A stretch of 12,315 nucleotides of DNA from Candidatus Auribacterota bacterium (GTDB lineage Bacteria; Auribacterota; JAFGBW01), in assembly GCA_016932965.1 (NCBI GenBank), contig JAFGBW010000176.1:1-12315 (forward strand), given 5' to 3'. Below, piece after piece: positions 3,712-12,315 of this stretch (the stretch's first letter is position 1; every line of letters starts with the position of its first letter). The notes under the pieces were generated by a model. That model made no database searches. It was not told the DNA's origin and worked only from the letters and a program-made list of their open reading frames with translations. A program made the translations under genes and the position numbers.

Positions 3712-3858
3712 ATTCTGAATTCTTTTAAACATCGCATAAAGTAAAAACCTAAAAAAACAGCATAAAACAATCATGGAAAAAAAACCGGACAGCAGTGATT
3801 TTCATATGAAGCATCATGGAAAAATGACACCCTATTATTTCCTGATGTTAGCCTCAAG

Positions 3859-3975
3859 GATTGAAATTCCCTCAAGCGGTCTTTTTTTGGACATCTCAAC
3901 CCGTAAGAAAGCTTCACAGCTGTTTGTTCGGCCTAACCTCGCTGCTTGCAGAGAGGTATACGGCCGGCGAATTGA
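3859..3975 (+). repeat. Structured intergenic repeat, copy B
   Basis: This matches 11631-11748 in the same orientation. Shared blocks are GATTGA..TTCCCT.AAG at the left, a GGA-ending block, CTGTTTGT.CGG (3920-3931) and GCCGGCGAATT (3963-3973). The two conserved blocks are 43 bases apart here and 44 in the other copy. Between them ACCTC (3936-3940) pairs with GAGGT (3953-3957), closed by GGCC/GGCC (3930-3933 with 3962-3965) and topped by CTGC-TT-GCAG. The other copy has a different but equally paired stem. It ends just upstream of the promoter for the next operon, so it is not part of that transcript. A 72-codon ORF across it (3773-3991) is considered spurious. Confidence 0.65.
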
Positions 3976-3987
3976 TGAAATTATCAT

Positions 3988-4016
3988 TTAACAAACAATC
4001 TAAAATATTTTATAAT
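3988..4016 (+). promoter_or_regulatory. Strong sigma70-type promoter of the receiver-kinase/squalene-synthase operon
   Basis: TTAACA (five of six consensus bases), a 17-base spacer, and perfect TATAAT (4011-4016). The expected start near 4023 gives a leader of about 38 bases to the ATG at 4061. This is the best promoter match in the window. Confidence 0.7.
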
Positions 4017-4060: not shown

Positions 4061-5260
4061 ATGAATGCTCTCTTAGAAAAACCGTTGATCTTATTTATCG
4101 ATGATGATGAAGATGTCCTCAGGACCCTGAAATTATGTCTGAACGAAGATTTTCAGGTGCTGACGGCTGCTACCCCTGAAGAAGGTCTTTTGCTGTTTAA
4201 GGAGAATCATCAAGACATCAAGGTAGTGATCACTGATCTCAAAATGCCTTCCATGAATGGAATTGAATTACTGAAGGAGATCAAACATCTTGATAGTCAG
4301 TCAGTGTGTCTTATCCTTTCAGGCCGAGGGGATTTCGAGGAAACCGTGGAGGCGATCAACCGCGATTTGGTATACCGTTACCTCCAAAAACCCTGCGACC
4401 GTGATTCTCTCCTGGAAACCGTTCACAGCGCCGTTAAAGCCAGACGAATGAATGAAACATTGGAAACCGTAAAAAAAATTCTGGCTGAAGAAGGCGCCCA
4501 TCTTACTCAATTTTATGATCAATTGATTTTAAAAGGCGGAACCCCCCTGAATTTCCGTTCAAATGATTATTCGGCCGGAGAAATCGGCCGGATCAAATGT
4601 CTGGCCGAAGTGGGGATGGTCACATTGAAAATTGCACACGATATCAGGAATAAGCTGCTGATTTTGTCTCTGGGGATGGAAGGAATCGAAACCAGCCTGA
4701 AAAAAGAAAATTTTCCTGCCATGTTCATGAACGTGGTAAAAAAATCCATTTCCGAAATCTCAGATTTATTGGAGGAAATTCATTTTTTTGTCACCCAGAA
4801 CGGTACGGAAATACACCCGGCCCAAATCCAGGTAAAAAATTTTATTTCGTCCTGTCTTCCGGAAATCCGTTCTGTTTTTGCGGAAAAAGAGATATCGGTA
4901 CATCTGCAAATACCTGAAGACTTCCAAATCAAGATGGATTCAAGGCTGTTATTGCGGCTCATTCTGAATCTGGCAATGAATGCTGCTGAATCCATGGTGA
5001 AGGGAGATTTCATTATTTCGGCCGAAGAAAAAGATACCACCATGGAATTGATTTTTTCAGATACTGGGAGCCGCTTATTGGAACAGAACCTGGATGACAT
5101 TTTTAAACCTTATGCCACGTATAAAACCGGAGGTTCCCGGATCGGTTTGATGAATCTTAAAAAAACAGTGGAATTACACGGGGGAACTGTCCGGGTAGAA
5201 AGCGCCGCCGGCAAGGGGATCATTTTCATATTGTCCTTGCCGAAAGAAAAAAAGCTGTGA
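4061..5260 (+). CDS. Response-regulator receiver / histidine-kinase hybrid with degenerate ATP-binding boxes
   Basis: This 399-residue cytoplasmic protein has a receiver domain at about 1-125: acidic pocket D14-D16, phospho-acceptor D59 in VITDLKMPSMNG, switch residue S87 and K110 in QKP. A kinase core follows, with H193 in an AHDIRN H-box, N303/N307 in NLAMNAAES, D334 in SDTGS, an FKPY F-box, and GGSRIGL. The G1 and G2 boxes lack usual glycines (DTGSR rather than DxGxG; GSRIG rather than GxGLG), so ATP binding or catalysis may be weak or altered. No sensor or membrane segment is present, so input presumably arrives by phosphotransfer to D59 or by a partner protein. Its stop overlaps the GTG start of the squalene-synthase-type gene by 4 bp, implying translational coupling. 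The start is supported by AGG eight bases upstream and a strong promoter. The output is unknown; no DNA-binding domain is seen. Confidence 0.85.
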   Translation: MNALLEKPLILFIDDDEDVLRTLKLCLNEDFQVLTAATPEEGLLLFKENHQDIKVVITDLKMPSMNGIELLKEIKHLDSQSVCLILSGRGDFEETVEAINRDLVYRYLQKPCDRDSLLETVHSAVKARRMNETLETVKKILAEEGAHLTQFYDQLILKGGTPLNFRSNDYSAGEIGRIKCLAEVGMVTLKIAHDIRNKLLILSLGMEGIETSLKKENFPAMFMNVVKKSISEISDLLEEIHFFVTQNGTEIHPAQIQVKNFISSCLPEIRSVFAEKEISVHLQIPEDFQIKMDSRLLLRLILNLAMNAAESMVKGDFIISAEEKDTTMELIFSDTGSRLLEQNLDDIFKPYATYKTGGSRIGLMNLKKTVELHGGTVRVESAAGKGIIFILSLPKEKKL

Positions 5261-11630: not shown

Positions 11631-11748
11631 GAATTGATGTTCCCTGAAGTAAGTTTAAGGGAATCTCCGCTTAAAAGGATGTTTCTCGACTGTTTGTACG
11701 GACATTCCCCCGATGCAAGCTGCGTGGAATGCAGCCGGCGAATTCATT
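11631..11748 (+). repeat. Structured intergenic repeat, copy A
   Basis: Second copy of the element at 3859-3975. It carries ATTGATGTTCCCTGAAG at the left, CTGTTTGTACGG (11690-11701) and GCCGGCGAATT (11734-11744). The variable stem here is CATTCC (11703-11708) with GGAATG (11726-11731), flanked by CGG/CCG and topped by GCA-AGC-TGC. This copy has an extra hairpin, TTCCCT-12-AGGGAA (11640-11663). It ends about ten bases before the Shine-Dalgarno of the next gene and so may be part of its 5' leader if transcription begins upstream. Confidence 0.65.
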
Positions 11749-11770
11749 TGATACCAGGAAAGGAAATGAT

Positions 11771-12315
11771 ATGAAAAAATATGTCATGGCCATGATGCTT
11801 GTTTTATTGCCCGTGAATTTATATTCCATGGGACTTCAGGATCAAACGACTGCTGGGTTTGATCTGGGAATGAAAGATTATGACGGAACCAGTGACAACG
11901 GGGCTTTGATGACACTGAAAGGCCGTTTTGCCATGCTGGAGAATCTGGATTTGATCGGTGCTTATTCCTATGAGTCATTTGAGATAGGCAATTTAAACTG
12001 GGAGACCACCACCCATGATTTCGAATTCGGCATGGACTGGAATTTCATTCCCAAGGATCAGTTTGATCCCTTTATCGGATTCAGCCTGCATTATATCACT
12101 TTTGGAGGAGACAACGATTCTGATAACACAACAAACTGGACATTTCGAGCAGGATTGGAGATCAATCTGATCAACAACTGGTCCCTCACCCCGCTTCTTT
12201 CATACAATCTCAACGAGGATTTTGAAAACGGCATTGTTTTATATGAATTGGCAGTAAACAAATGGTTTAATGAATCCATGTCTTTCGAATTCCGCATCCG
12301 TTCAGATGAGGACGC
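11771..12315 (+). CDS. Exported outer-membrane beta-barrel protein, partial
   Basis: An open frame from the ATG at 11771 runs to the window edge (181 complete codons). A strong AGGAAAGGAA Shine-Dalgarno precedes it. The first 19 or so residues (KK, then a hydrophobic core MAMMLVLLPVNLYS) are a signal peptide. The rest alternates polar and hydrophobic residues with aromatic girdles: GFDLGMKDYDG, LDLIGAYSYESFEIG, HDFEFGMDWNFIP, FDPFIGFSLHYITFGG, WTFRAGLEINLINNWSLTPLLSYN, LYELAVNKWFNESMSFEFRI. This fits an eight-stranded OmpA/OmpX-like barrel inserted in the outer membrane, with acidic, Asn-rich external loops. Six or seven strands are visible, so little is probably missing unless a C-terminal domain follows. 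Specific function unknown. The gene's leader may include the structured repeat. Confidence 0.8.
   Translation, partial: MKKYVMAMMLVLLPVNLYSMGLQDQTTAGFDLGMKDYDGTSDNGALMTLKGRFAMLENLDLIGAYSYESFEIGNLNWETTTHDFEFGMDWNFIPKDQFDPFIGFSLHYITFGGDNDSDNTTNWTFRAGLEINLINNWSLTPLLSYNLNEDFENGIVLYELAVNKWFNESMSFEFRIRSDED

Follow-up and report, generated by a model that had tools for sequence, protein, structure and literature searches.

A dispersed two-hairpin repeat family in a Candidatus Auribacterota genome, with copies lying in frame in protein genes

The window analyzed here is a stretch of 12,315 nucleotides from a Candidatus Auribacterota bacterium (GenBank assembly GCA_016932965.1, contig JAFGBW010000176.1), and spans contig C254 in full; the MAG to which it belongs measures 3.14 Mb in 300 contigs and is 92.6% complete. 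A tRNA gene is located at positions 1754-1828 (Rfam RF00005, 59 bits), and positions 849-882 form a perfect 17+17 bp palindrome with zero spacer (CTATCATTTATCTTGTA/TACAAGATAAATGATAG), which is not related to the repeat described below. The gene at 4061-5260 encodes a response-regulator receiver domain fused to a histidine-kinase-like ATPase. Its neighborhood is unusual, with genes for squalene/phytoene synthase and phosphomethylpyrimidine kinase. The window further contains two copies of a repeat, which can be aligned with each other over ~115 nt, far above chance (Table 1). Copy 2 ends ~24 nt upstream of the ATG of an outer-membrane-protein ORF.

An earlier note on this DNA had described a motif pair kept at nearly the same distance in both copies, and we found it as described: CTGTTTGTTCGG...GCCGGCGAATT at 3920-3973 in copy 1 and CTGTTTGTACGG...GCCGGCGAATT at 11690-11744 in copy 2, with start-to-start spacings of 43 and 44. 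In a scan of the whole genome, the exact motif pattern matched these two sites alone, and the reversed control gave 0 matches. The two stems reported between the motifs, ACCTC/GAGGT and CATTCC/GGAATG, are both present as sequence, but the latter is missing from the minimum-energy fold of copy 2. Hairpin 1 pairs poorly in copy 1.

Table 1. Repeat copies, their hairpins and the candidate ORF in the window. R1 scores and E-values come from a profile built from 17 copies, both window copies included.
Feature	Position	Strand	Details and basis
Repeat copy 1	3859..3975	+	~115 nt, two hairpins; profile R1 77.9 bits, E 7e-23
Repeat copy 2	11631..11748	+	~115 nt; profile R1 91.5 bits, E 4e-27
Hairpin 1 region, copy 1	3867..3894	+	family consensus TTCCCTAAAGC AAG CTTTAGGGAA; alignment with other copies, consensus fold
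Hairpin 2, copy 1	3923..3971	+	TTTGTTCGGCC..ACCTC..GAGGT..GGCCGGCGAA; fold and alignment
Hairpin 2 region, copy 2	11693..11742	+	CATTCC..GGAATG; alignment
Candidate 72-aa ORF	3773..3991	+	translation; residues 30-67 are the copy 1 peptide (profile match without stops)

A looser version of the pattern revealed a third copy on another contig (C300), and BLASTN with copy 2 as query returned about a dozen more copies at 71-84% identity. The sequence-only profile R1, built from a 17-copy alignment (A5), gave 52 matches in the genome at E<1e-3, and a second profile, R2, built from all 53 aligned matches, again gave 52. The family thus defined has ~52 copies on ~40 contigs, of which 43 are near full length (~114 nt) and the rest are fragments and short forms. 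Its consensus is ATTGAAGTTCCCTAAAGCAAGCTTTAGGGAATCTCCGCTCAAAAGGATGCTTCGCAACTGTTTGTTCGGCCTAACCCCGCTGCAAGCAAAGGGGTTTGCGGCCGGCGAATTCAT. In the ~114-nt unit, equivalent to 38 codons, the conserved linker TCTCCGCTCAAAAGGATGCTTCGCAACTG separates the left hairpin, TTCCCTAAAGC-AAG-CTTTAGGGAA, from the right one, GTTCGGCCTAACCCCGCTGCAAGCAAAGGGGTTTGCGGCCGGCGAA, and the two ends match weakly as inverted sequences (TGAA.../...TTCA). Conservation is uneven along the unit, with the AAT of GGGAATCTCC and the GAATTCA blocks above some others. Pairwise identity between copies averages 64% (range 45-85%), and no copy therefore appears recent.

Short forms of ~49 nt, of which there are at least four (L101, L102, L074 and L075; near locus positions 1980-2120), fuse the left arm from hairpin 1 with the right arm from hairpin 2 at a shared GCAAGC, as would be expected if slippage or recombination had involved both hairpins. 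On contig C63 (L081:1928-2151), two full copies lie in tandem with a common junction, GGCCGGCGAATTGAA.

The family appears to be confined to this genome. A profile search found no homologue of the family in 43 other genomes of the phylum, the nearest of which belong to another family of bacteria. Two weak R1 matches in relatives (G004 and G046) appear by eye to be coding sequence. Across 84,980 named genomes the exact pattern had 0 matches, and a search of viral contigs, phages and plasmids returned nothing meaningful, in collections from which records of the window's own genome were possibly left out. The looser pattern matched 13 times in the named genomes, each time singly. We judged these matches to be chance; four of them had weak R1 scores, the best of which (23 bits) is due to the pattern used for selection.

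The consensus folds into two hairpins and a linker, and does so better than shuffled sequences (RNA z -2.8, DNA z -3.3). The earlier note saw in the stems of the two copies compensatory changes that suggested selection on RNA or hairpin DNA structure. A rival reading would make the repeat a family of structured RNAs, either cis-regulatory (such as a riboswitch-like leader) or sRNAs, with the fold under selection, and would make the window copies regulators of the outer-membrane protein and of the signalling operon; that copy 2 stops just short of an ATG would suit such a role. However, RNAalifold returned no consensus structure from 17 copies and none from 53, and the columns with the highest mutual information are adjacent subfamily markers rather than base pairs. 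We compared stem pairing in the 43 full copies with the column-shuffled expectation. Neither the outer stems nor the stem cited for compensation showed an excess: GAAG/CTTC, TTCCC/GGGAA and ACCCC/GGGGT pair as independent columns would, and for ACCCC/GGGGT, the stem in question, 63.5% were paired versus 65.2% if independent.

Compensation persists in one place, the apical part of hairpin 1, which ranks first among all possible 5-bp runs and is the sole stem in excess (67.5% paired versus 61.1% when shuffled, with 2 of 1000 shuffles as high). When arms are exchanged between copies, folding is poorer by ~0.9 kcal/mol for hairpin 1 (z -3.0) and by 0.9 for hairpin 2 (z -2.0), and column-shuffled copies fold ~3 kcal/mol worse than the real ones (plus strand z -5.8, minus strand z -3.2). 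Together, the arm swaps and column shuffles point to a modest memory of hairpin pairing. This is not how a maintained RNA fold would appear, and the memory could be explained by palindrome-templated correction or by subfamily history as well as by selection. Given that RNAalifold yields no structure, that the cited stem shows no excess and that the covariation in apical hairpin 1 is modest, a conserved cis-regulatory RNA is unlikely. Rfam, searched at gathering and at permissive (E 10) thresholds, matched the tRNA together with sub-threshold chance matches, and placed the repeat in no described RNA family.

Genomic context bears on the same question. We placed 47 copies of at least 60 nt relative to their neighbor genes, as predicted by a simple ORF caller. 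Twelve sites lie between convergent genes, 12 between divergent genes and 17 between genes running in the same direction, the remaining 6 being at contig ends; among the 17, the repeat's strand agrees with the genes in 8 and opposes them in 9. Since these orientations are near random, a role as a 5' leader across the family is excluded, and the shared placement of the window copies upstream of plus-strand genes, to which the earlier note had drawn attention, is coincidental. Some copies, moreover, lie within coding sequence. We therefore regard an RNA family under selection, with regulatory leaders in the window, as very improbable, and ascribe no dedicated regulatory role to the repeat at the two window sites. 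Three loci elsewhere (L079, L087 and L063) and the window stretch 11675-12315 show a repeat just 5' of a co-directional gene and stop-free into the long downstream frame; these may be N-terminal extensions.

Hairpins near either end, the missing target-site duplication, short single-hairpin forms and dispersed intergenic copies are features that would also fit mobilization by a RAYT (Y1/TnpA_REP), as in REP/REPIN-type families, or an element with subterminal hairpins that derives from IS200/IS605. The earlier suggestion of a REP-like family holds in the broad sense of many copies with a hairpin-forming consensus; short hairpin repeats, high copy number and a mostly intergenic location are likewise traits of REP/REPIN with RAYT. 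In the strict, RAYT-linked sense it finds no support. The Y1 transposase profile (PF01797, Y1_Tnp) has no match in this 92.6%-complete genome, yet it is found in 5 of 14 control genomes, and the present unit is far longer than REPs and displays no GTAG-type tag in the alignment. A RAYT-mobilized origin thus has little probability. By eye, the GCCTAAC of the right hairpin resembles the attC core motif, which raises integron attC sites or another recombination-cassette repeat as a further alternative. Against this stand the single copies scattered over ~40 contigs in random orientation, the lack of a matching GTTRRRY box in the alignment and the position of the sites, which is not between gene cassettes; we give this alternative next to no weight.

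Three copies are located within long ORFs, on one strand and in one frame throughout. A peptide profile (A7), built from the three gene-copy peptides and two fragments, recovers all three, each exactly 114 nt (38 codons) and stop-free, in ORFs of 450, 681 and 694 codons. Pfam identifies the host proteins as a zf-HC2 protein (repeat at C97:9955-10068), a DEAD/DSHCT Ski2-like helicase (C70:11820-11933) and the glycogen branching enzyme GlgB (C112). The encoded segment is hydrophilic, spans 36-38 residues (an example stretch is KDASQLFFQPDSAAGK) and leaves the host gene unbroken. By comparison, the span is a multiple of three in only 14 of 40 other copies, most of the others carry stops in the family frame, and the consensus itself has stops in hairpin 1 when read in this frame. 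As a pattern across these three copies, the repeats in genes appear to have been filtered by the need to remain open and in frame.

In GlgB, the repeat occupies L084:1330-1442 and encodes residues 579-616, near the C-terminal beta domain. Alignment with PDB 5gqw places query residues 29-574 on 128-692 and 615-690 on 697-772; between the two blocks, ~40 query residues face 4 residues of the chain, and this interval coincides with the repeat peptide. All eight GlgB homologues from the same phylum (57-62% identical) lack the segment, with the gap at the place seen in 5gqw and a net difference of 36 residues. The inserted stretch, IEAPLTQLQETSVRKDASQLFFQPDSAAGKEVYGRQI, is the translated repeat and is located at the start of the Pfam Alpha-amylase_C segment (609-690). 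At the level of sequence, the comparison offers direct proof that GlgB carries a repeat-encoded insert of net 36 residues, and GlgB is the one case among the three gene copies in which comparison with homologues proves the insertion.

The helicase copy precedes the conserved FPYDTFQLKAI on its N-terminal side. An N-terminal insertion is probable rather than proven, because similarity to MTR4/Ski2 begins at about residues 39-51 and the start must be a TTG overlapping the gene upstream. In the zf-HC2 protein, the repeat falls in a low-complexity linker, and the putative insertion rests on its frame and openness. A codon-position test on the three gene copies gave no purifying signature at position 2 (0.23/0.35/0.39, versus 0.35/0.34/0.41 in other copies), and the inserts thus look tolerated rather than selected or used.

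The two window copies differ in whether the family frame is open. Copy 1, read from position 3860, is open for 38 codons and translates as IEIPSSGLFLDISTRKKASQLFVRPNLAACREVYGRRI (A7 52.7 bits, no stops), while copy 2 has 2 stops in the family frame. The candidate 72-aa ORF around copy 1, whose C-terminal half is the repeat peptide, has no clear ribosome-binding site; it may have arisen recently as a gene from the repeat, or may be open by chance.

Among described repeats, the closest in kind appear to be the Rickettsia palindromic elements (RPEs) for insertion in frame, and CIR and ERIC for anatomy and distribution (PMC10969869, PMC2229807). RPEs (Ogata et al. 2000, 2002), as covered in these two reviews, are hairpin-forming elements of ~100-150 bp, located between genes or in frame within conserved genes, which contribute a recognizable peptide in a constant frame and leave the host protein apparently intact. 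The present family shares the size class (~52 dispersed, hairpin-forming copies of ~114 nt) and the combination of intergenic and in-frame gene copies; strand and frame are constant across 3 of 3 host genes (38 codons, no stops), the host protein is apparently intact, and the insert is missing from homologues of the conserved enzyme GlgB, with the zf-HC2 and helicase copies also in frame. It differs in having two separate hairpins and a linker instead of one palindrome extending from end to end with a long terminal inverted repeat, in the stops of its consensus frame and in the fraction of copies within ORFs, which is 3 (possibly 4) of ~52 here and nearly half of the first RPEs described. The repeat acts like an RPE in protein genes but is not classed as one: it lacks the single palindrome, and the likeness is one of size class, hairpin formation and in-frame habit.

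ERIC/IRU elements of enterobacteria (127 bp) have terminal inverted repeats with TA target duplication, and their ORF-bearing copies are sometimes fused to genes (PMC2229807). The present repeat resembles them in size, in its imperfect palindromic character, in its intergenic and orientation-independent placement and in its ORF-bearing copies, but neither terminal inverted repeats nor TA duplication were found. CIR, the CcrM-associated intergenic repeat of Caulobacter and Brucella, consists of two independent stem-loops and a linker; all of its frames contain stops, and it is not found within genes (PMC2229807). The two stem-loops with a linker recur here, as does a GANTC motif (GAATC) in the consensus; in contrast to CIR, the present repeat also lies within genes, some copies are open, and the GANTC letters show no special conservation (the G, first A and C positions stand at about 60-75%).

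The resemblance of this anatomy to CIR (PMC2229807) lends some credit to a further possibility, that the repeat is a functional intergenic DNA element retained for protein binding, methylation, attenuation or mRNA stability, roles that have been suggested for ERIC, CIR and BIME; the gene copies would then be accidental. Uneven conservation, together with mostly full-length copies at high divergence, points the same way. However, neither gene context nor orientation shows a preference, and as the family occurs in none of the relatives searched, long-term conservation is not demonstrable. We consider a retained function of this sort unlikely, though less so than an RNA or RAYT-linked origin.

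Taken together, the window copies probably belong to a dispersed, non-autonomous repeat that is specific to the lineage and of the same kind as MITE, ERIC and RPE; it would have spread in trans, would now be inactive and would have no dedicated regulatory role at the window sites. An enzyme acting in trans probably dispersed the copies long ago, with the hairpins either part of its recognition or a by-product of palindromic replication and correction. The family is probably inactive today and decaying. Intergenic copies would gather stops and indels, whereas gene copies would survive only where they lack stops, have a length divisible by three and sit in a tolerant surface loop or terminus. 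Several observations weigh against a mobile origin. The terminal inverted repeats are weak and, as a departure from a classical MITE, no target-site duplication is detectable (native flanks 4.81 matches versus 4.84 for mismatched flanks); a search covering the Y1 class found no mobilizing enzyme; and, with the nearest genomes in another bacterial family, no filled and empty site pair is available at the DNA level. The full length of most copies at 36% divergence and the uneven block conservation may also reflect constraint instead of simple decay.

The repeat is a new family of a known kind, with an in-frame coding habit, from a bacterial lineage that has been little sampled and is represented here by a single genome; most copies are intergenic and a few lie in frame in proteins. 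Its discovery carries a caution, as two copies with matching stems resembled a regulatory RNA and the full family revealed mostly decaying repeats. In-frame palindromic inserts in conserved proteins have been reported as peculiar to Rickettsia and related bacteria, while ORF fusions of ERIC and similar repeats, on a smaller scale, are already known. A 2024 review of MITEs regarded the same route of protein evolution outside the kin of Rickettsia as conceivable, not shown (PMC10969869). We tentatively raise the possibility, which we hold to be less than even, that the present family represents a second, independent origin of 'protein-coding palindromes' outside Rickettsiales, where gene content and genome size would place this lineage, with the frame-preserving 114-nt subfamily serving as a hydrophilic peptide cassette that is retained in working enzymes and may seed small ORFs, such as that around copy 1. 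GlgB with its repeat-encoded insert provides a directly testable case.
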